Assembly: GCA_018660225.1 (NCBI GenBank)
Contig: JABJKT010000203.1
Span: forward strand, 1-36,147
DNA: 36,147 nucleotides
From: Kordiimonadaceae bacterium
Lineage (GTDB): Bacteria > Pseudomonadota > Alphaproteobacteria > Sphingomonadales > Emcibacteraceae
Direction of reading: 5' to 3'
This document shows, one piece after another, positions 1 to 10,620 of the stretch. Both the position numbers and the translations under genes were made by a program. The first letter of the stretch is position 1; every line of letters begins with the position of its first letter. The notes beneath the pieces were generated by a model that was not told where the DNA came from, made no database searches, and saw only the letters and a program-made list of their open reading frames with translations.

Positions 1-1173
1 AATATTACCAAAATTCATTCTGAGCGGCTCTATGGCCTTGGTAAATTCATCTATATTGCTGGCCCGCTGCATATTATACTACTGGTCAAGCCAGCCCGGC
101 TGATCAAAGGTGGCAAAATTGCCGCTGAGGAACTTTTCGTCCCGAAGCGCAACGACAGCACCATGATGGGTTTTACGGTATTTAACGCTGCGCACTTCGC
201 CGCCTTTTATCTTAATCTCACCGTTCCACTGCGTCGCCTCGCGTGTGCCGTCGCCGTAAGTATAGCTTAGCGGGCTTTCAGGATCGTCAAAATGCTCAAT
301 CCAGCTGTCTTCTTGATTGGCAAAATTATCTGTGCTCATCCAACCAAGGTTTTCACCAAAACCAATATAAGGAAGCGGATAACCGAAGCGGGCGTATCCT
401 GTGAAATTCCAACCTTCATCCGACATCATATGCGCTTCATAAGTCTGACCGATACCAAATGCGGGAAGATGCGGGTTTATAAATAAATATGACCCTGTCC
501 CATCAATTTTTGTGCCGTTAACCGCCCATGCGTTGGAGCCAAATTCTTTTCGGTCTTCCGGATCATAATAGGGAATTTTCAACTGTGCGAGTTCAAGTGG
601 TGTTTCGTTAATGGCTTCGAAAGCAGCGGTACGCTCCCCCGTTGTGAAACGAAGACGGCTAAGGAAGCCACCAAGATAATACCAGCGGCGAATGAGCGCT
701 AGCGAATACCATGGTTCAATATGATCCAGTAACTTAACCTCAAGCTCAGGATGTGTTTCCATATAATAATTGATGCCAGCGGCATAACCATCAAGCAGTG
801 ATTTCACCGCAGGAACAGCGTTTTCATAATCGCGCTTCGAAAGTTCATTATTTTCAAAACTATGGACAACCCAATCAGAAAGAAGTGCGCTTTCCCCCAA
901 ATGTTCCGCCGAACGGCCAATGCCCATAATAAAGCCAAGCTCAAGCTGATTAAAATTATCCTCCGCCTGTGCGTATCCCATACCAAATGCTGTATCGCCA
1001 TCAGTTTTGCCGTGAATATGCGGCACCCCCCATTCGTCACGATAAATTGTAACATTCTGCGATTGGTGCGCTACAGTCACCTCACTACTGGCATTATTAT
1101 CAGATTCTGAACCACAAGAAGTGATCAAAAGAACAGCCATAAATCCAACAAGAATTTTCCCTACTTTACTCAT
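1..1173 (-). pseudogene. Penicillin acylase family lipoprotein, interrupted by in-frame TAG and cut by window edge
   Basis: N-terminal part of an Ntn-hydrolase of the penicillin/acyl-homoserine-lactone acylase family, which cleaves amide bonds in the periplasm after self-cleavage into two chains. A lipobox (ITSC, Cys20) follows a hydrophobic stretch. The family signature RDxWGVPHI-like segment is near residues 45-54, and the nucleophile motif GSNAW places the expected N-terminal Ser of the beta chain at 213. A strong GGGAGAG ribosome site precedes the ATG at 1173. The frame hits TAG at 79-81, but translation beyond it stays open to base 1 and reads YNMQRASNIDEF..., which is what acylases have next (the family has QW-Y-x-M-x-x-A). 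The TAG therefore most simply replaces a TGG Trp codon. The enzyme would lose most of its beta chain. Either the gene is inactive or the base is wrong; the rest of the gene lies outside the window. Confidence 0.8.
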
Positions 1174-1243
1174 AAGTCTCTCCCAAAACTTTAAATTACT
1201 TTTTTATAGGAAGACTTTATCAGTTCAGGAAAATGAGTCAACT

Positions 1244-3931
1244 TCACCTTAAGGCCCGCGAATGGGCCGGGCCTCTTATGATGGCGTTCATCAGTAGGGT
1301 GTTTAGTCCGTCTACGTAGGCGCGGGTGGTCGGGCTATAGGCGAAGGCGATGACATTTCCTGCCCCGGTGGGTTCAACCATAACGAATGGCTTAAAGGCA
1401 AGCTGTGTTTTGGTTTCATCGTAAATATAGCCACTTTGCAGCACCTCGTCCGCTGCCGCCATATAAGCGACATTTGTCCCATCATTCAGTTTTAGCGGCG
1501 AATAAATATCGCTGCGGCGCATAACCACATTTATTTCATCCGCAAGTCCGGCTGACATCCAATGGTTTTTATCCACTTTGGCCTTTACGATAAATCCGGC
1601 TAGCCTTGAAGGGGCCTGATTTTCCGGTGTTATCGCCTGCTGGTAGCCATCCGCATCAAGTGAGGCTCCTTCGGTCCTTGTTGATGCGTTATCACCACCG
1701 GTCGCGTCCTGATCAGGATTATAGGCAAGTTCAAGCTTTGAAGAAAGCAGGCCTATATCTTCTGAAATAAGATAATTAAGCGCCGAACCAAGCGCGATTA
1801 AAGTACCGCCACGCTCGACCCAGTTTTTTATATTATCAGCACCAGCTTTACCAAGCACACTCGCATAACCGCCACGGCTCTGCGGCATAATAAGCACTTG
1901 AAAGCGGTCAATGGACTGTGATTTTAGCTGATCGGTTCTGATCACTGTCACCGGATAGCCAAGTTGGCGTTCAATGACAAAGCGGGTGTTGCCAGTCGAA
2001 TAAGGATCGGTCGGCACGTCCCATAATATGCCCACTTTTGGTGGTAAAATGACCGGTGTTTTACTGCTGCCAAAATTTGGCCCTTCCATGATCCAGCTAT
2101 CATTGACACCCACGACACTCGCGCCTGTTTCCTGCGCCAGCATGGCAAGTTTATCACCAAGACCATCTTCATTGAGGTGTTTTAGAAAAACCAATGTACC
2201 CGACGGAAATTCCTGAGCGCCATTTACAAATTTTTCATCACTTGATTTCACATGAAGCCCCATATGAAGCGCGCGGCTAAGCAGGTTTGACGCCGTCGTT
2301 TCCCCCCACGGCACAAGATAAGCAAAACTTGCGTCTGCATTCATAACCATACCGGGCCTGATAAGATTTGGCGCAACCACTACGGTTTCTTCGGTCAGGT
2401 TTTCAGAGCATTCCGCTACATCAACGCCCCACATAAGCGGTAGCGACCATGAGGTCACGTCATAAATTTTTGATCTTTGGCCTAGGCTATGAAGTCTTTC
2501 TTCCTCTGCTATAAATTCGTCACTCATGGGCACGGATTTATCAAGCAGCACCCGAATGAAACGTTTTGTCGGCTGGGCGGTGTTAATAATATAACTTCCC
2601 GCCGGATAATTGGCGCGACACGCACTGAACGATGATGTCGCTTCACCGATTTCTACATCCTGCATCGCCATTAATCCAACAAGTTTATTGGCCCCGGCCT
2701 GATTTTTCTGAACCGGGATGATGAATGATTTTATGTCGTCATTCTCGGCTTCTTCAATACCGGATTTTCCGTAATCATAAAAATCACCAAGCAGTTTTTC
2801 ACGGTTATTCGCAACCGTTTCCCCCACAGATATCGAGCCAACAAATTGACGCCGCACTGCGCCCCTATAATGGGCAACTGTTCCGTCCTTGCGGCGGTAT
2901 GTCATGCCACGCACCGATGGCTGTTCAAACAACATACCAATGGCGCCATAATAAGATGGCGTGGTTGAAACATAACCCGGGAAAAATTCGTCGAACACTT
3001 CGCGGGTAAAATAATCAAAACCGAAATTATCAAAATGTCTGGCGTGATTAGCGGCAAACAGCATCACATTGTTATGACGCACTTCCGTATCATGGGGATT
3101 AAATGGTGCGGGCTCGGGATCAAAATAAAAATTACCGTCGCCGCCCTGCTCATGAATATCCATCACCACAAGCGGGAAATACTGGCGAAGCGCCATTGCC
3201 TGATTGCGGGTTTCCGGCTGGGTAAGCACAAATCCATCACGGTTTAAATCAAACAGATAATGATTGGTACGACCGCCCGGCCAGGGCTGGTCATGTTCTG
3301 CGGAAATCCGTTCTTCTTCGTCCATCATCCCTTCAGCGGAAAGAAAACTGTTTACAAAGCGGTCCCGCCCATCAGGGTTTGATGTGGGATTAATAAAAGT
3401 CACGACATTTTGGCGGATATTATCAACAATAGGATCATTTTGAGCCGCAAGGATATGATAAGCGGTCATCATTGCCGCATCATTTGATGATGTCTCATCG
3501 CCGTGAATACCGTAACCAAGCCAGATGGTGCCGGGCAGGTCTTTTATAAGTTGGTCCGCCTGCGCCTGATCGGTAATGCGGCTGTCATGAAGCTGGTGCA
3601 TTCCCGTCTTTAAATCTTCGAGCGCGCTTATTCGTTCGGCTGATCCCACAGCAATATAAATAAGCCGTCTGCCCTCCCACGTTTTACCTATATCAAAAAA
3701 CCTGACCCGGTCTGGAACGGCCGCAGCGAGCGCTTCAAAATATTTGATAATATTCGCGCTTGATGAAATCTGGTCACCAATATCATAACCGAGCACATCC
3801 ATGGTTGTCGGGATTGAGCTATCATAGCTAACACCGGGCCAAAACTCGAAGCCTTCCTTTTCTTGCGCAAAGGTAAGTGATGCGCTTATAAAAAAGATAA
3901 ATATTCCAACGATAGTTTTAATGCCGGCCAT
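1244..3931 (-). CDS. M14 family zinc carboxypeptidase, exported, with C-terminal extension
   Basis: Predicted 895-residue secreted metallopeptidase that trims peptides in the periplasm or outside the cell. A signal peptide covers about residues 1-22 (cleavage near TFA/QEK). The M14 zinc motif HxxE is HGDE at 143-146, the third ligand is probably His260 in DIHEQ, and NPDGRDR (185-191) and LNRD (229-232) fit the substrate-binding segments of the family. The roughly 500 C-terminal residues include a segment resembling the class I amidotransferase-like fold often fused to such bacterial M14 proteins; this part is inferred. The ATG at 3931 was chosen over one 57 bases upstream because GGAGGAAATC directly precedes it and the signal peptide begins there. 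It reads toward the acylase gene with a gap of about 70 bases, so co-transcription is likely. Confidence 0.88.
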   Translation of the reverse strand: MAGIKTIVGIFIFFISASLTFAQEKEGFEFWPGVSYDSSIPTTMDVLGYDIGDQISSSANIIKYFEALAAAVPDRVRFFDIGKTWEGRRLIYIAVGSAERISALEDLKTGMHQLHDSRITDQAQADQLIKDLPGTIWLGYGIHGDETSSNDAAMMTAYHILAAQNDPIVDNIRQNVVTFINPTSNPDGRDRFVNSFLSAEGMMDEEERISAEHDQPWPGGRTNHYLFDLNRDGFVLTQPETRNQAMALRQYFPLVVMDIHEQGGDGNFYFDPEPAPFNPHDTEVRHNNVMLFAANHARHFDNFGFDYFTREVFDEFFPGYVSTTPSYYGAIGMLFEQPSVRGMTYRRKDGTVAHYRGAVRRQFVGSISVGETVANNREKLLGDFYDYGKSGIEEAENDDIKSFIIPVQKNQAGANKLVGLMAMQDVEIGEATSSFSACRANYPAGSYIINTAQPTKRFIRVLLDKSVPMSDEFIAEEERLHSLGQRSKIYDVTSWSLPLMWGVDVAECSENLTEETVVVAPNLIRPGMVMNADASFAYLVPWGETTASNLLSRALHMGLHVKSSDEKFVNGAQEFPSGTLVFLKHLNEDGLGDKLAMLAQETGASVVGVNDSWIMEGPNFGSSKTPVILPPKVGILWDVPTDPYSTGNTRFVIERQLGYPVTVIRTDQLKSQSIDRFQVLIMPQSRGGYASVLGKAGADNIKNWVERGGTLIALGSALNYLISEDIGLLSSKLELAYNPDQDATGGDNASTRTEGASLDADGYQQAITPENQAPSRLAGFIVKAKVDKNHWMSAGLADEINVVMRRSDIYSPLKLNDGTNVAYMAAADEVLQSGYIYDETKTQLAFKPFVMVEPTGAGNVIAFAYSPTTRAYVDGLNTLLMNAIIRGPAHSRALR

Positions 3932-4083
3932 GATTTCCTCCATATTTTTATATATCAGGAAGATTAACCGTTCTGGTGGATATATCAAGTAGGGAACAAA
4001 AATGTGATCGGCTGTTATTAGTATCTGGCTAATTAAGCTGTATTTATACTATTATTCAATTAATTTATTAAAAAAGGCGGCCA

Positions 4084-4890
4084 ATGCTAAGACTTATTAT
4101 TATATTTTGTTTGAGTTTATTATTTATCCAAACGTCACAAGCGGATGAGTTTGATCATTCTATTTGGGACGATCTGCTTAAAAGTCATGTAGTAAATCTG
4201 AATGAAGATCAGCCAAATCAAGCCACCGCAATGGATTATGACGCTTTATCGGTTAATCAGACCGCACTTCAAAATTATCTTGAACAGGTTTCAAAAATTT
4301 CCAAATCAGACTTTGATAATTGGCCAGTGGATGAACGGCTGGCCTTCTTGCTTAATGTCTATAATGCAGCAACGGCTCAGCTGGTCCTCACCGCTTACCC
4401 GGATATTAAATCAATCCGTGATATCGGCAGTTTCTTTAATTCACCTTTTCGAAAGGATTTTATCTCGCTGTTCGGTGAGACGATATCGCTTGATGATATC
4501 GAAAAAGGAATGGTGACCGGCGACGATAATTATAATGACCCGCGCGCTCACTTCGCACTGAATTGCGCCAGCATCAGCTGTCCGGCGCTAAGACGCGAAG
4601 CATACTCAGGTGTAGATCTTAATGAGCAGCTTAATGAGCAGATGAGGGCTTTTCTAGTCGATCGGTCCAGAAACCAACTAGAAGGAAATACCCTGCGGGT
4701 TTCAAAAATATTTGACTGGTATGATGATGACTTTGAAAGTGGTTGGATGAACATTGAACGTCTGGAAGATTTCCTTGCCCTAAACGCCGATGCGCTTGGC
4801 CTTAGCTCTGCACAAAGTGACGCTTTAAAAGCAGGTGATATAAAAATCAGATATTTTGATTACGATTGGAGCCTTAATCGACTAAGGTAA
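4084..4890 (+). CDS. DUF547 domain-containing exported protein
   Basis: 268-residue protein with a signal peptide (about residues 1-20, ending SQA/DEF). The DUF547 family is recognised from NVYNAATAQLV, the DDIEKGMV segment and the DPRAHFALNCASISCPALR block, whose conserved Asn-Cys and Ser-Cys-Pro residues are all present. The biochemical role of DUF547 is unknown; its conserved Cys and His residues make a hydrolase or transferase role conceivable. It is the first gene of a closely spaced plus-strand run (27, 30 and 12 bases to the next genes) with a DUF4440-like protein, an MFS transporter and a LytTR regulator. An AAGGCGG ribosome site lies just before the ATG. Confidence 0.85.
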   Translation: MLRLIIIFCLSLLFIQTSQADEFDHSIWDDLLKSHVVNLNEDQPNQATAMDYDALSVNQTALQNYLEQVSKISKSDFDNWPVDERLAFLLNVYNAATAQLVLTAYPDIKSIRDIGSFFNSPFRKDFISLFGETISLDDIEKGMVTGDDNYNDPRAHFALNCASISCPALRREAYSGVDLNEQLNEQMRAFLVDRSRNQLEGNTLRVSKIFDWYDDDFESGWMNIERLEDFLALNADALGLSSAQSDALKAGDIKIRYFDYDWSLNRLR

Positions 4891-4917
4891 GCTAATTAAA
4901 AAATTAGGAAGCCTCAC

Positions 4918-5358
4918 ATGCGATATATTTTATTACTACTTTTTATTCTGCCACTACCCGTGCAAGCCCAAGAAAAAGACACGGTTGAGATACTTTTTGC
5001 GCTCGACCGGGAATTTGTTCAGTACCGGCTTGAAAACGGAACCTATAAAGCTTTTGCCAAATATCTGGCCCCTGATGCCATAACATTACCGCCCGGTGAA
5101 GCACCAAAAATTGGCCTTGAAGCCATATTACGTGACGCTGGTGATAAGCCAAATACCACCGTCACCTGGGAGCCGGAAACCGGTGATATATCCGGTGATC
5201 TCGGGTTTACCTGGGGGCTTTTTTCAATAAATACCACCGGTGCTGATGGCGCGGTTAGCAAGCAGCACGGTAAATATGCTACCGTCTGGAAACGTCAAGA
5301 TGATGAGGAATGGAAAATTGTCATCGATAGCTTTAGTCTAAACCCGCCACCAATGTAA
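4918..5358 (+). CDS. DUF4440/SnoaL-like (NTF2 fold) exported protein
   Basis: 146-residue small protein with a signal peptide (about 1-17, VQA/QEK). The remainder fits the NTF2-like DUF4440 fold: an N-terminal helix with ALDREFVQYRLENGTYKAFAKYLAPDA, then strands ending in GKYATVWKRQ and WKIVIDSFS, a typical DUF4440 ending. The family holds small ligand-binding proteins and some enzymes, and nothing here identifies a substrate. It sits between the DUF547 gene and the MFS gene and is probably in the same transcript, with an AGGAAG ribosome site before the ATG. Confidence 0.75.
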   Translation: MRYILLLLFILPLPVQAQEKDTVEILFALDREFVQYRLENGTYKAFAKYLAPDAITLPPGEAPKIGLEAILRDAGDKPNTTVTWEPETGDISGDLGFTWGLFSINTTGADGAVSKQHGKYATVWKRQDDEEWKIVIDSFSLNPPPM

Positions 5359-5388
5359 TTAAAACGACTACTCAGGGGAAAAGCCTGC

Positions 5389-6705
5389 ATGGCTGATCAA
5401 AATAATATAATCCGCGAGCGAATTGATAGCGGCCCGATGACAAGGGCGCAAATCATTATTGTTGCCCTAGGCTTTATTCTTAATTGTGTTGACGGCATTG
5501 ATGTGGTGTCCATGTCTGTCGCAGCACCAGTTCTTAGTGAAAGCTGGCAAATCTCATCGGTTGAAGTTGGCTATATTTTAAGTGCAGCGCTCGTAGGAAT
5601 GTGTATTGGCGCCATGTTCCTTGCACCACTGGCCGATCAATACGGCCGTAGGAAGATAGTGCTTTATTCGGCGCTTCTAACTGGCTTTTCAATGATTGCT
5701 ACTGGGTTTGTTGATAGATCAGTGGAAATGATGATCCTGATCAGGGCCATATCCGGCCTTGGGATTGGGGCTATTTTTGCAAGTGCTGCCACTTTTGGCG
5801 GTGAATTTACCCCTGAGCGTTTTAAAAATTTCACCGTGACAATTATTGTATCCGGTTATCCCTTCGGCGCTGCCGTTGTCGGACCAATAGCGGCCTATAT
5901 CCTTCCAGCCTACGGCTGGCAAACACTGTTTATCTGCGCTGGCATTGCAACGCTTTTCATTTGTTTTTTGGCCTTTTTGTTACTCCCTGAATCAGTGCAG
6001 TATCTTGAACGGTCCAAGGGCGAAGCGTCAGAAAAAATTGCCGCTATCAATAAGGTTCTTGTCCGTATCAGCCGTGAACCGATTGATCAATTACCTGAAA
6101 TTGACAAAACGACAGAAATAAAAGCAGCCGATGTTAAAAGTCTTATTGGGCCAGATCTTATAAAAACGACGCTGAAACTCTGGGCGATTTTCTTTACAGG
6201 ATATCTTGGTATTTATTTTATTATTTCCTGGGTTCCATCGCTATTTGTGAATAGCGGCTGGACAATGAGCCAGGGTATATATGCCCTTACCTTAAGCAAT
6301 GTAGGCGCTGTGTTTGGCACCACCTGCATCGGCCTTATTACAACGCGCTTTAAGCAGGCCGTTCCCATTGGCATCTTTTTTGGGCTAACCGCAATGCTGA
6401 TGATTTATTTCACAGTTTCAGAACCAACCGAACTAATGATGCTTTATATTCTGATCTTCCTGATAGGCGTTTTCTTAAATGGTGCCTTTAGTGCCATGTT
6501 TGCCGTCGCCGCGCGCACATACCAGACATCCATCAGATCAACCGGTATAGGATGGTGCGCCGGGCTTGGACGCACAGGGGCAATTGTCGCACCGATCCTC
6601 GCCGGTTATCTGGTCGCACAGAATTTTGATATGTATGCACTATTCGCCGTTTTTGCCGTGCCGGTCATCATAGCGGCGGCATTAATTGTCACGATTAAAG
6701 TTTAG
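5389..6705 (+). CDS. MFS transporter, aromatic acid:H+ symporter (AAHS)-like
   Basis: 438-residue inner-membrane carrier with about 12 hydrophobic segments. The first helix has the DGIDVVSMSVAAPVL pattern typical of the AAHS (PcaK/BenK-like) group, where the acidic residue is functional. The loop 2-3 motif appears as LADQYGRRKIV, matching the MFS G-x-x-x-D-R-x-G-R-R signature in form. Known AAHS members import aromatic acids with protons; the substrate here is not evident. The gene ends in TAG, whose last bases overlap the AGGGAG ribosome site of the LytTR gene, so the two are likely translationally linked. This TAG also shows that the codon is an ordinary stop in this genome. Confidence 0.82.
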   Translation: MADQNNIIRERIDSGPMTRAQIIIVALGFILNCVDGIDVVSMSVAAPVLSESWQISSVEVGYILSAALVGMCIGAMFLAPLADQYGRRKIVLYSALLTGFSMIATGFVDRSVEMMILIRAISGLGIGAIFASAATFGGEFTPERFKNFTVTIIVSGYPFGAAVVGPIAAYILPAYGWQTLFICAGIATLFICFLAFLLLPESVQYLERSKGEASEKIAAINKVLVRISREPIDQLPEIDKTTEIKAADVKSLIGPDLIKTTLKLWAIFFTGYLGIYFIISWVPSLFVNSGWTMSQGIYALTLSNVGAVFGTTCIGLITTRFKQAVPIGIFFGLTAMLMIYFTVSEPTELMMLYILIFLIGVFLNGAFSAMFAVAARTYQTSIRSTGIGWCAGLGRTGAIVAPILAGYLVAQNFDMYALFAVFAVPVIIAAALIVTIKV

Positions 6706-6717
6706 GGAGCAAATATA

Positions 6718-7506
6718 GTGAACCGCTTTAAAATAATACTAATCGGAACGTTAAGCGTCACTATGCTCTTTTCGGTTATTATTTATTTACGGGTAAATAT
6801 GGCTCCAGACGGTAAGAATTTTATACCTATATTTTTATGGCAAATGGTTGTCTGGTCACCGTGGCTTCTCTATGGTCACTTAAACAGCTGGCTCGATCAC
6901 CGCTACCCGATTGTTGAGCAACCGATATTATATTGGGTGCTGCGACATAGCGCTCTTTGTGCACTGGTTGTAGCCTCTCATGTGGTGTGGTTTTTTATGA
7001 TCAGTAGTAATTTTAGTCCGTTTTTGGGCGTGGAAAATACTGGCTACGGCGCCTTCTTTTTCTTCTTTATCATGTGGGGCATCTGTGATTTTCTTATTTA
7101 CTGGACGCTGCTTGGTATTTATGCGCTTCAACAGCTTCTGAGCGTATCACCGTCTGAGGCTGAACAAGCAAAGCCAAAACCTGATTATTTTCTGCTTAAA
7201 ACCACGGGACAGCAATCTTCCGTTCGCATTTCGGACATTCTTTGGATCGAAGCAGAGGATTATTGCTGCCGGGTTCATACAGAAACAGATAATTATCTGG
7301 TGCGTCAGTCCTTAAATTCATTTGAAAAATCATTGCCTGGTGAAAATTTCCTGCGCATTCACCGATCAACCATAGTAAATGTCGCCCAAGTTGAATTGAT
7401 CGAAAAACAGCAAAACAAACGTCATATTGTCAGATTAAGAAACGGCACTCAGCGCGCTATTAGTCCTAATGGCCGCCAAAAGCTGCTTGAAATTCTTGAA
7501 AAATAA
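6718..7506 (+). CDS. Membrane-anchored LytTR-family DNA-binding regulator
   Basis: 262 residues. The N-terminal half has about four hydrophobic helices (roughly 8-28, 38-50, 70-95, 105-140). The C-terminal 100 residues are a LytTR DNA-binding domain, seen from ISDILWIEAEDYCCRVHTE, SLNSFEKSLP and FLRIHRSTIVNV. There is no receiver domain, so the membrane part may sense a signal or simply hold the regulator at the membrane. The start is GTG, supported by AGGGAG eight bases upstream. It is co-directional with the MFS gene (12-base gap). A pair of direct repeats 21 bp apart directly downstream (7522-7551) matches known LytTR operator geometry and suggests control of the following receptor gene. 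Confidence 0.88.
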   Translation: MNRFKIILIGTLSVTMLFSVIIYLRVNMAPDGKNFIPIFLWQMVVWSPWLLYGHLNSWLDHRYPIVEQPILYWVLRHSALCALVVASHVVWFFMISSNFSPFLGVENTGYGAFFFFFIMWGICDFLIYWTLLGIYALQQLLSVSPSEAEQAKPKPDYFLLKTTGQQSSVRISDILWIEAEDYCCRVHTETDNYLVRQSLNSFEKSLPGENFLRIHRSTIVNVAQVELIEKQQNKRHIVRLRNGTQRAISPNGRQKLLEILEK

Positions 7507-7521
7507 ATAGATCCCTGCTTG

Positions 7522-7551
7522 TTTACTGCAACAAATGACCATTTCACTGCA
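7522..7551. promoter_or_regulatory. Candidate LytTR operator (two 9-bp direct repeats, 12-bp spacer)
   Basis: TTTACTGCA (7522-7530) and TTCACTGCA (7543-7551) are direct repeats differing at one base, with 12 bases between them and a 21-bp repeat distance. On the other strand they read TGCAGTAAA and TGCAGTGAA, similar to the ACAGTTAA-type half sites bound by AgrA-like LytTR domains, which also sit as direct repeats about 12 bp apart. The pair lies between the LytTR gene and the TonB receptor gene, 62 bases before the receptor start. The assignment is an inference from geometry and neighbours. Confidence 0.55.
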
Positions 7552-7613
7552 TTGGTCTTTAGTTAAGACATCCCGCCAATTAGCTTAATCATATATTCAA
7601 TTACAGGAATTTT

Positions 7614-9647
7614 ATGATGAAGTCTTTCAAGTGTGTTATTTGTTTTTTTCTATTGATGAGCCAATATGGGTTTGCGCAAACTAGCGCCGGTAGCGTGACC
7701 GTTTATGATAAAGTATATCTGGCGGGTATCATCAATGCAGTAAATGCCCTTGATCTGGCAATGAAAGTTCCGGGCGGGCAGGTTATTCTCAGCCGCAGTG
7801 AAAATAGCGCGCGCGGATTTGGCAGTAATGATGACGGTATTTTGATCAACGGCAAAAGATTATCAGGCAAAAATAACAATAGTGAAGCCGCTCTTGGCAG
7901 AATTGCTGTTTCTCAGGTGCTTCGCATAGAAATTATTCGCGGCTCATCACCGGATGTAAAAGTATCAAGCCAGGAAGCCATGATGAATATCGTGCTGGTG
8001 GGGGATAACAGCAGCGGCAGCGGTACTTTTGATGTTGGCGCGCGTATTCTGCCGGGCGGGCGCCTTTTTCCACTTGGGTTATTATCCTATAGCGGCAGTT
8101 CCGGTAAGCTCGATTATTTTATGGAAGCATCCCAGTCGGGCTATATTACCGATTATTTCAGAGACGATAATATTATAAACGGTGACGGCATTACCGAAAA
8201 ATCCCTTATTGACAAAGGTGATCAGTATTTTCATAGCCGTGCCCTATCAGGCAATATAACGTATAGCTTTTCTGATAGCGACCAGCTCCGCCTTAATGCT
8301 CGCCTAACCAATGACAGATCACGGGTCAATTGGAACGGTGAGGTGGATAATTTTTCACCGCTCGGTGTTTTAGAGACAAGTGGCGAAGCCCTGCAAAAAA
8401 TCGCCATGGATAAGCCCGGCTTTGAAGTGGGGGGAGACTATACGGGTAATATTTCTGACAAATGGGGTTATAAATTATTGGGTATCTACACCAGTAGTGA
8501 CGCTAAAACCAACCAGAAAAGAGATGCGCTAATCACAGAAGAACCAGCCCTTTTTGATAGCGATACGACATTTTTCAGTAATGCCCGTGAAGCCATTTTC
8601 CGCCCAAACTTAAGCTATAATATGACAAGCGGTGGCGAGCTGAAAATAGGATCGGAACTGGCCTATAACAGTGTTGAAGCGGGACTAGATGAAAATGACT
8701 TAGTTACAGTTAAGGAAACCAGATCAGAAAGTTTTATAAATTATACCGGAAAACTGAGCGATAATTTAAACCTCGACACAGCCTTAAAATATGAATATTC
8801 AAAAATTTCTCAAATAAGCGATAGTCGTAACAGATCAGAGAACTTCTCATTTTTAAAACCAAGCATTGATCTTCGTTATGATTTAGGGGCGCAAAATCAG
8901 TTCCAATTATCTGCGCGGCGTGAGGTATCCCAACTTAATTTTAATGATTTCGCCGCCTCGGTTGATGAAGACAATATCTTTTTTGGTGGCAATCAAGATC
9001 TTGTGCCTGAAAAAAGCTGGGGCATTGAAGGCTCTTTTGAGCGACGTTTTGCAAACGATCAAGGCCATATCAAAATTGGTCTTAAACATGAACGCATTTC
9101 TGATCATATTGAACTGATTGAAGTGGCGCCAAATATTGCCGGTGTTGGTAATGTGGGAAATGCCACACAAAACACATTAAACCTGAGCACCAGTCTAAAG
9201 TTTGGCTTTATTGGCCTTGAAAATGTGGTGCTTGACGGTAGTATTGAATTTTTTGATACCAACACGGTTGATGCTTTTAGCGGTCAGCAAAGAGATTATA
9301 ACAGTGATCAGACTTTTGCTTCAACCGGTATATTGCGGCACGATCTTGAAGAGCTCGGCCTCAGTTACAGCTTGCAATTCTGGTACTACGGACCGCAAAA
9401 AATATATTCAATAGACCAGTTAACCGACCGAAATCACGACATACTGCATCTAAGTTTCAGCGTCAGTTACAATATATTTAAAAATATGGTCCTGACAGCA
9501 TCGGTAGATAATCTGGCAAATGCCAACGAAAGCCGCATCAGAACAATTTATGCTCCTAATAGGACAAGTGGTATGATTTCTTTTATCGAGGACAGAGAAC
9601 AACATTTAGATAAAAGGTTTCGCCTCAGATTGAAAGGGACTTTTTAA
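7614..9647 (+). CDS. TonB-dependent receptor-like outer-membrane protein
   Basis: 677-residue outer-membrane protein with a signal peptide (about 1-21, FAQ). A possible TonB box (SVTVYD) follows, then a plug domain that includes ARGFGSNDDGILINGKRL, the VLRIEIIRGSS segment and a final MNIVL stretch like the plug end INIVTK. The rest alternates in beta-barrel style and finishes with aromatic Phe (RLRLKGTF), the usual barrel-assembly end. Such receptors take up large or scarce ligands using TonB energy; the ligand is not identifiable. An ATG-ATG pair gives starts at 7614 or 7617 after an AGGA site. It is probably regulated by the upstream LytTR protein. Its 3' end overlaps the convergent Fe-S gene by 23 bases. 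Confidence 0.82.
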   Translation: MMKSFKCVICFFLLMSQYGFAQTSAGSVTVYDKVYLAGIINAVNALDLAMKVPGGQVILSRSENSARGFGSNDDGILINGKRLSGKNNNSEAALGRIAVSQVLRIEIIRGSSPDVKVSSQEAMMNIVLVGDNSSGSGTFDVGARILPGGRLFPLGLLSYSGSSGKLDYFMEASQSGYITDYFRDDNIINGDGITEKSLIDKGDQYFHSRALSGNITYSFSDSDQLRLNARLTNDRSRVNWNGEVDNFSPLGVLETSGEALQKIAMDKPGFEVGGDYTGNISDKWGYKLLGIYTSSDAKTNQKRDALITEEPALFDSDTTFFSNAREAIFRPNLSYNMTSGGELKIGSELAYNSVEAGLDENDLVTVKETRSESFINYTGKLSDNLNLDTALKYEYSKISQISDSRNRSENFSFLKPSIDLRYDLGAQNQFQLSARREVSQLNFNDFAASVDEDNIFFGGNQDLVPEKSWGIEGSFERRFANDQGHIKIGLKHERISDHIELIEVAPNIAGVGNVGNATQNTLNLSTSLKFGFIGLENVVLDGSIEFFDTNTVDAFSGQQRDYNSDQTFASTGILRHDLEELGLSYSLQFWYYGPQKIYSIDQLTDRNHDILHLSFSVSYNIFKNMVLTASVDNLANANESRIRTIYAPNRTSGMISFIEDREQHLDKRFRLRLKGTF

Positions 9648-10620
9648 GCGTTCTCTTTAGTTTCTTTTTCGCTATTTTTTTAATCAGGTTGCTTGGTACA
9701 CCGGGGCGGGCCCATGGGCAGGCGGCAAGACACATGCCGCAGCCGGTATGTTCATTAAAAAATGGCAGGCATTTATCAAAATCTACGTACCATTTTTCAA
9801 CGCCGCGCACCATCTGCTTTTCTGGTGAAATCGCTTCTGGCAGACAGGCGGTTTCGCACGCTCTGCAATTTATGCAAAAATCATCAACACCAAAACTGTC
9901 GGCGCTATCAAGGTCAAGTGGCATATTGGTCACCAACGCCCCAAGACGAAGCACAGAACCATGCTCGCGGTTAATAAGCGAGCCATGTTTGCCAAGCTCA
10001 CCTATACCGCCTTCAAGGGCCGGTGGGACAAGCAAAATAGGGACATTTTTTGAACCGCCGTAACTTTCCGCGTTCCAGCCCTGCTTATGAATCCATGCGG
10101 CAATGGCGTTTGAGACAAGATGCGCTTCACCGTACTGCTTGATCACTTCGATGGCGGCAATGACTTCAGGTGCGGTTTTAAGATTTTCAAAATCCATCGC
10201 TACACCAATGGAAATCACCGTGTCATAAGGCACATCAAATGTTTCTATCACCCATTCAGGGCGTAATTTTGTAATTCCAACGGCAACTGCACCGTGGTCA
10301 AAACCAACTTTTTTTGCAAGCTCTGTCCATTCACCAGACGGTTTTTCAAGCCGGACAGGTGAGGCTGGCGGAATTTCCTGTGACCTTATCACATCCGCTT
10401 CCATTTGGGTTTTATAAAGCTCTTCATCGCGCGGCGCGTGATCTTCAAAAAATTGCATCAGTGGGCCAAACGGAGTGAGCGATGCTTCCTGCCAATATAT
10501 TGGCGTCGAGCGACGTACTTCCGTTTCGCCAAGACCGTTTAGATCATTGCCCGACACACCATCAGGCCAGATATCCATCTGCTCTTTACTGGGTACAAAT
10601 TTTTCTTTGATCTTTCTCAC
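9625..10620 (-). CDS. Reductive-dehalogenase-like / epoxyqueuosine-reductase-like 4Fe-4S protein
   Basis: 331 residues with two ferredoxin-type clusters: Cys249, 252, 255, 259, and Cys284, 294, 297, 301 with the CPWARPG ending. Before them, GGIGELGKHGSLINREHGSVLRL followed by LVTNMPL closely follows the GELGRHG...vRl...TDLPL block of RdhA-type and QueG-related corrinoid-dependent reductases. It has no Tat or other signal peptide, so it is likely cytoplasmic, unlike respiratory RdhA. A corrinoid cofactor and the substrate are inferences. The start is GTG (10620), one base after the SGNH gene stop, in the PhoD-SGNH operon. A basic Lys-rich tail (KKIAKKKLKRTLKK) ends the protein and overlaps the TonB receptor gene end. 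Confidence 0.75.
   Translation of the reverse strand: MRKIKEKFVPSKEQMDIWPDGVSGNDLNGLGETEVRRSTPIYWQEASLTPFGPLMQFFEDHAPRDEELYKTQMEADVIRSQEIPPASPVRLEKPSGEWTELAKKVGFDHGAVAVGITKLRPEWVIETFDVPYDTVISIGVAMDFENLKTAPEVIAAIEVIKQYGEAHLVSNAIAAWIHKQGWNAESYGGSKNVPILLVPPALEGGIGELGKHGSLINREHGSVLRLGALVTNMPLDLDSADSFGVDDFCINCRACETACLPEAISPEKQMVRGVEKWYVDFDKCLPFFNEHTGCGMCLAACPWARPGVPSNLIKKIAKKKLKRTLKKSLSI

Follow-up and report, generated by a model that had tools for sequence, protein, structure and literature searches.

Membrane-bound LytTR factors are common in Alphaproteobacteria and, to our knowledge, little is known about their sites and targets. LytTR direct-repeat operators have already been described, as have membrane-bound LytTR regulators such as CoxC and HigX. 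CoxC of Afipia carboxidovorans is, like the protein studied here, an alphaproteobacterial, membrane-bound one-component LytTR regulator (accessible part of PMC11347149). HigX of Caulobacter crescentus is likewise a four-helix membrane LytTR factor, and its regulon is rich in envelope and transport genes, with a TonB receptor gene near one peak (available text of PMC13384398). The LytTR regulatory systems HdrRM/BrsRM of Streptococcus mutans use 9-bp direct repeats, usually with a 12-bp spacer and a few bp upstream of the -35 element, and activator LytTR sites are given as 9-bp repeats with 12-bp spacers located 4-11 bp upstream of the -35 element (PMC6193735, in the portion available). The repeats of AgrA are centred near -60, according to the accessible part of PMC4227749.

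Here, we provide evidence from sequence, conservation, position and domain content that a pair of direct repeats in a Kordiimonadaceae bacterium very probably serves as the activator operator of an adjacent one-component membrane LytTR regulator. The window (the whole stretch of 36,147 nucleotides that was analysed) contains the regulator gene, the repeat pair and a TonB-dependent receptor gene as the proposed target (Table 1). A preliminary description had claimed two 9-bp direct repeats TT[TC]ACTGCA, 21 bp apart with a 12-bp spacer, between a membrane-anchored LytTR gene and an outer-membrane receptor gene. Repeats and location were both confirmed: TTTACTGCA and TTCACTGCA stand in the same direction on the plus strand at 7522-7551, with a period of 21 and a spacer of 12, repeat 1 begins 15 bases past the LytTR stop, which ends at 7506, and 62 bases (7552-7613) lie between repeat 2 and the receptor ATG (7614). 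The motif is present and conserved but its better form is TTNNCTGCA, with positions 3 and 4 differing between relatives. As this mask was loosened only after the relatives had been seen, results for the original motif are reported alongside.

Table 1. Features of the LytTR-receptor locus, in coordinates of the window
Feature	Coordinates	Strand	Basis
MFS transporter, gene before LytTR	5389-6705	+	Domain search; neighbourhood in relatives
LytTR regulator with membrane anchor (262 aa, GTG start); LytTR domain preceded by four long helices	6718-7506	+	Pfam, structure model
Operator repeat 1, TTTACTGCA	7522-7530	+	Seen in sequence, conserved in alignment
12-bp spacer	7531-7542	+	Diverged between relatives
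Operator repeat 2, TTCACTGCA	7543-7551	+	Seen in sequence, conserved in alignment
Proposed weak -35 element TTTAGT	7558-7563	+	12-site alignment, first T 12/12
Proposed weak -10 element TAGCTT, 17 bp past -35	7581-7586	+	12-site alignment, last T 12/12
Predicted transcription start, approximate	7593	+	Inferred from -10 position
TonB-dependent outer-membrane receptor, 677 aa, proposed target	7614-9647	+	Pfam Plug; orthologs adjoin LytTR in 5/5 genomes

Exact TTYACTGCA-N12-TTYACTGCA occurs nowhere else in the window, and the motif pair with up to three mismatches has three matches against a shuffle mean of 0.13. A reverse-strand pair with two mismatches, located at 7736-7765 within the receptor gene, was discounted. 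Single half-sites (at most one mismatch) are not enriched in the window (19 versus a shuffle mean of 20.5). With no motif specified, shuffling the 107-bp gap yields a 9-bp pair of period 21 (no more than one mismatch) in 0.9% of cases, or in 3.3% if spacers of 10-13 are admitted; the whole window contains 23 such period-21 pairs, versus 5-8 at periods 19, 20, 22 and 23. Given this gap-shuffle P of about 0.01-0.03 and the 23 pairs in the window, the bare repeat is modest evidence that proves little; it is conservation in relatives that raises the pair far above chance.

In the regulator, Pfam (cut-off E 0.001) identified a LytTR domain, with 78.6 bits, and no other domain. Together with four long helices predicted ahead of this domain, which would anchor the protein, this upholds the earlier designation as a membrane-anchored LytTR gene. 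The structure model (mean pLDDT 85.3, pTM 0.52; 15 sequences) has helices at residues 3-26, 35-62 (kinked), 70-99 and 114-141, followed by the LytTR beta fold, and no periplasmic domain; the four N-terminal helices would presumably span the membrane. The modelled LytTR fold matches the LytTR domains of AgrA and Bacillus cereus with Foldseek TM-scores of 0.80-0.84 by target length. Among 15 relatives, invariant residues form the clusters W-Q...W, SPF and G...FF-W in the membrane part and W-A-Y and HRS in the LytTR domain. HRS is the counterpart of FFRCHNS in AgrA, which the accessible part of PMC4227749 implicates in DNA binding. The most conserved part of the membrane domain is SPFL...TRYGAF..FF between helices 3 and 4.

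Searching the LytTR protein against 99 whole genomes retrieved five close orthologs, own gene included (100, 70, 63, 64 and 58% identity; genomes G000, which is the own genome, G003, G004, G008 and G009). Loss of the repeat pair in relatives had been named as a refuting outcome for the operator. The pair was found at period 21 directly behind the LytTR gene in all five genomes, each time before the same receptor gene, while the spacers have diverged. The five pairs are TTTACTGCA/TTCACTGCA, TTAACTGCA/TTCCCTGCA, TTTACTGCA/TTGCCTGCA, TTAACTGCA/TTCCCTGCA and TTAACTGCA/TTCGCTGCA. Of 60 genomes searched, only these five have close orthologs of the receptor (at least 60% identity), which invariably adjoin LytTR, with the next best receptor at 38%; six loci with remoter receptors (at most 38% identity) had no pair with fewer than three mismatches in the first 1700 bases. 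A ferredoxin-type gene sits between the MFS and LytTR genes at L058, and at L059 the stretch examined contained no MFS gene. LytTR and receptor genes are thus a stable unit, as close receptor orthologs always adjoin LytTR while MFS and ferredoxin genes come and go, and the MFS gene, which is not always adjacent in relatives, is not part of the minimal module. In wider searches for the window-type LytTR protein, the own genome was the only one of 385 genomes of the class to encode it at E 1e-28, and two gammaproteobacterial samples yielded 1 of 369 and 3 of 279 genomes. Locus L207 from these samples has the same sequence as L063 and no pair behind its LytTR gene.

Ahead of the LytTR gene, positions 79-6705 of the window encode penicillin-amidase-like, M14 carboxypeptidase, DUF547, DUF4440 and MFS proteins. 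The penicillin-amidase-like and DUF4440 genes remain near LytTR in three relatives, which may point to the import and degradation of an amide or peptide compound. At its other side, the end of the receptor gene overlaps a convergent ferredoxin-type gene (9625-10620, minus strand) by 23 bp (9625-9647).

In genomes G010 and G060, the gene after a remoter LytTR gene (34 and 28% identity) encodes not the receptor but a type I phosphodiesterase/PafA-like phosphatase (Pfam PF01663), and the gap again holds a pair, TTCACTGCA/TTCACTGCA in G010 and TTCGCTGCA/TTCCCTGCA in G060. This phosphatase was found in only 2 of 60 genomes at E 1e-60. On another contig, the own genome encodes this phosphatase with about 62-64% identity to the G010 protein; it scores 227 bits against NCBIfam PafA, below the model cut-off of 650. 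Both genomes have the gene order RidA-YkgJ-DUF1697-phosphatase in common. The own-genome locus has no counterpart to the LytTR gene found there in G010, yet it keeps CTTACTGCA-N12-TTCACTGCA 60 bp upstream of the ATG. Most simply, the window LytTR protein probably serves this phosphatase gene in trans. A membrane-signal-to-uptake switch, as initially suggested, is consistent with the conserved pair before the receptor but is too narrow, since pairs also precede the PafA-like phosphatase and other exported proteins.

The exact pattern TTNNCTGCA-N12-TTNNCTGCA has 17 matches in 15 of the 99 genomes, versus two for the reversed pattern, and seven of the 17 lie directly behind LytTR genes. The remaining ten were read as chance: eight fall within frames of at least 297 aa, and the others within one of 145 aa and one of 82 aa. 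In the own genome, only the pairs before the receptor and phosphatase genes are outside long frames; other matches there were rejected (L003 in a 675-aa frame, L005 in a 156-aa frame, L004 inside the receptor gene). Marinicella has exact TTNNCTGCA pairs at loci L165 and L156 (1501-1530 in each), with distances of 37 bp to an exported peptidase-like frame and 362 bp to a TonB-dependent receptor downstream, both possible further targets.

A genome scan with the LytTR alignment yielded 71 loci, the nearest from Kordiimonadaceae and Emcibacteraceae MAGs, which suggests that the window belongs in this part of the Alphaproteobacteria. By a rough hydropathy criterion (count of at least 2), 19 of the 71 were kept as membrane loci and 52 left out. 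Without any motif, a repeated 5-mer at distance 21 was found between 40 bp before and 150 bp after the LytTR stop in 16 of the 19 membrane loci (next best distance, 8 of 19); distance 21 was also commonest in the 52 loci left out (32, next 26). The original motif pair (at most three mismatches) does not lie upstream of the LytTR gene in any of the 19 (260 bp upstream plus 60 bp of the gene). A fresh sample of 199 Flavobacteriaceae-type genomes contained 13 with a flavobacterial membrane LytTR gene, of which 11 were new, and in nine of these 11 loci TTNNCTGCA pairs (at most two mismatches) stand 9-24 bp behind the stop. Both sets combined make 30 membrane-LytTR loci, which come from Proteobacteria and Bacteroidota. 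Between 40 bp ahead of the LytTR stop and 110 bp past it, 19 of them contain the original motif (at most three mismatches) at period 21, against a mean of 0.02 in 200 shuffles. Period 21 is the sole peak, with no more than two of the 30 loci at any other period from 15 to 30, and the reversed motif was found in none of the 30. Kinship inflates these locus counts, though spacers and flanks have diverged. Since L056-L059 and L066 duplicate L012-L015 and L017, the close-ortholog and 30-locus results are not fully independent. The pair, conserved at five of five close orthologs and at period 21 in 19 of 30 membrane loci, supports the reading as a LytTR-type operator that had been proposed at the outset.

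Seven of the 30 loci lack the pair even with the loosened motif (L063, L065, L067, L068, L113, L185 and L191). At L063, the gene after LytTR runs in the opposite direction, and a one-mismatch pair at 5080 precedes an exported-protein frame upstream of LytTR (found post hoc and not counted). Loci L065 and L068, whose membrane LytTR genes have no CTGCA pairs, share GCGGGCGGTT in the gap after the stop, perhaps a changed operator. In five Flavobacteriaceae loci (L093, L109, L114, L182 and L186), the membrane-LytTR gene is followed by a second repeat pair about 50-75 bp from the first, weaker in L182 and L186 (three mismatches); these are possibly two promoters or a cooperative array. A related half-site also occurs in another LytTR group: cytosolic LytTR genes of Runella (L102, L104, L096, L099 and L117) have TTCACTGAA-type repeats with a 21-bp period about 105-220 bp past the stop, in three copies in L102 and L104. 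The contig of L096 is labelled Alphaproteobacteria (D1_MAG_00039) and is probably mis-binned; its LytTR domain is identical to the Runella ones.

Twelve proteobacterial sites, i.e., those before five receptor, three phosphatase and four FG-GAP protein genes, were aligned. CTGCA of repeat 1 is conserved in all 12 at four of its five positions and in 11 at the fifth; TT and CTGCA of repeat 2 are conserved throughout, and outside the repeats all 12 sites have T at alignment positions 37 and 65. A -35-like hexamer starts 6 bp after repeat 2 and is followed, after 17 bp, by a -10-like hexamer, which reads TTGAAA-N17-TTCAAT at the phosphatase sites of G000 and G010. A sigma-70 consensus scan returned nothing at the window site, where the proposed elements are poor consensus matches; the promoter proposal is drawn from the alignment only. 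AGGA precedes the receptor ATG. Relative to the predicted start, the repeats would span about -72 to -43, a placement as in the activator LytTR promoters described in the accessible parts of PMC6193735 and PMC4227749.

We infer a mechanism in which the LytTR protein is held in the inner membrane by its four-helix domain, and its cytoplasmic LytTR domain, as a dimer, would contact both CTGCA half-sites on one helix face (21 bp being two turns), at about -72 to -43 and just upstream of a weak sigma-70-type promoter. RNA polymerase recruited by LytTR would then transcribe the receptor gene. The membrane domain probably reads a signal, with SPFL...TRYGAF..FF as candidate segment, and the same protein probably also switches on the PafA-like phosphatase gene on the other contig of its genome.

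Activation is not certain because CoxC, also a membrane-bound LytTR protein and with related half-sites (TTNNNGCN), is a repressor (PMC11347149, in its accessible part). A CoxC-like site, at which the membrane protein keeps the receptor promoter silent and dissociates upon a signal, would accord with repeats just 6 bp from the proposed -35 element. We nevertheless regard it as unlikely, as the CoxC operator overlaps the -35 element, whereas all 12 sites leave 6 bp between the window-type pair and the proposed -35 element, and this and the -10 element are weak, as expected of an activated promoter. It is still less probable that another LytTR protein of the cell, a response regulator or C174, reads the site and that the adjacency is incidental. 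The genome does encode five LytTR proteins, the window one and four others including C174 as a second membrane LytTR protein, but the pair tracks the window LytTR family between genomes, no such pair was found near the own genes of the other four, and in a domain tree of 72 rows these four paralogs are separated by a branch from all 15 site-bearing rows, with weak support (64/88). That the repeats arose by chance or as a by-product of an RNA hairpin or transcription terminator belonging to the LytTR operon is hardly credible. In favour of this, GACCA...TGGTC could form a stem around repeat 2, and the P of the bare repeat in the gap is about 0.01-0.03. Yet the RNA fold is no stabler than shuffles (z -0.17), no terminator was called at the site, and relatives keep both CTGCA cores and the 21-bp period but not the hairpin arms.

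With the pair read as the activator operator of its neighbouring membrane regulator, one membrane-LytTR family gains a sharp predicted operator, a promoter geometry and, in the own genome, a putative two-gene regulon of receptor and PafA-like phosphatase. Since this operator is also found after membrane-LytTR genes of Bacteroidota, a simple search could reveal the targets of membrane LytTR proteins and so link uncharacterised exported proteins and receptors to a membrane signal. Genes that follow such operators encode the receptor, the phosphatase, an FG-GAP repeat protein, a beta-propeller and an NHL protein. We lean, with some reserve, towards the broader proposal of a previously undescribed, phylum-crossing mobile one-gene switch, in which a four-helix sensor-LytTR protein with its own operator behind its gene drives the next exported gene, the operator and LytTR domain staying constant while the target and probably the signal are exchanged. 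Targets could outlive their local regulator and be served in trans, as exemplified by the own-genome phosphatase locus without a LytTR gene. The half-site, the layout with the operator behind the regulator's own gene and the exchangeable targets were not found in the literature searched, to which most subscription journals did not belong.

Among the known systems, HdrRM/BrsRM differ in having a separate membrane inhibitor protein, whereas the membrane part of the window protein is fused to the DNA-binding domain, and in repeats that drive the regulator's own operon instead of standing behind the regulator gene (PMC6193735, as far as accessible). The gene next to the window LytTR gene is that of the receptor and not of a separate membrane inhibitor, and no pair (at most three mismatches) was found upstream of the LytTR gene in the window. 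The HigX motif is an 8-bp inverted repeat, ATGTTASC/GSTACCAT, with no spacer, in contrast to 21-bp direct CTGCA repeats, and as given in the available text of PMC13384398 it is absent from 7507-7613. AgrA and ComE share the LytTR fold but are phosphorylated response regulators with no membrane domain. CoxC has a half-site, TTNNNGCN, that resembles TTNNCTGCA, and differs by an MHYT domain, which Pfam (E 0.001) did not find in the window protein, and by seven helices, three repeats, an operator overlapping the -35 element and repression (accessible part of PMC11347149). RcoM of Paraburkholderia xenovorans, as described in the same part of PMC11347149, is a soluble heme-PAS LytTR sensor with three 8-bp repeats and in this differs from the window protein, but it resembles the proposed activator system of the window in its half-site TTCNNGCA, its 12-13 bp spacing and its role as an activator.
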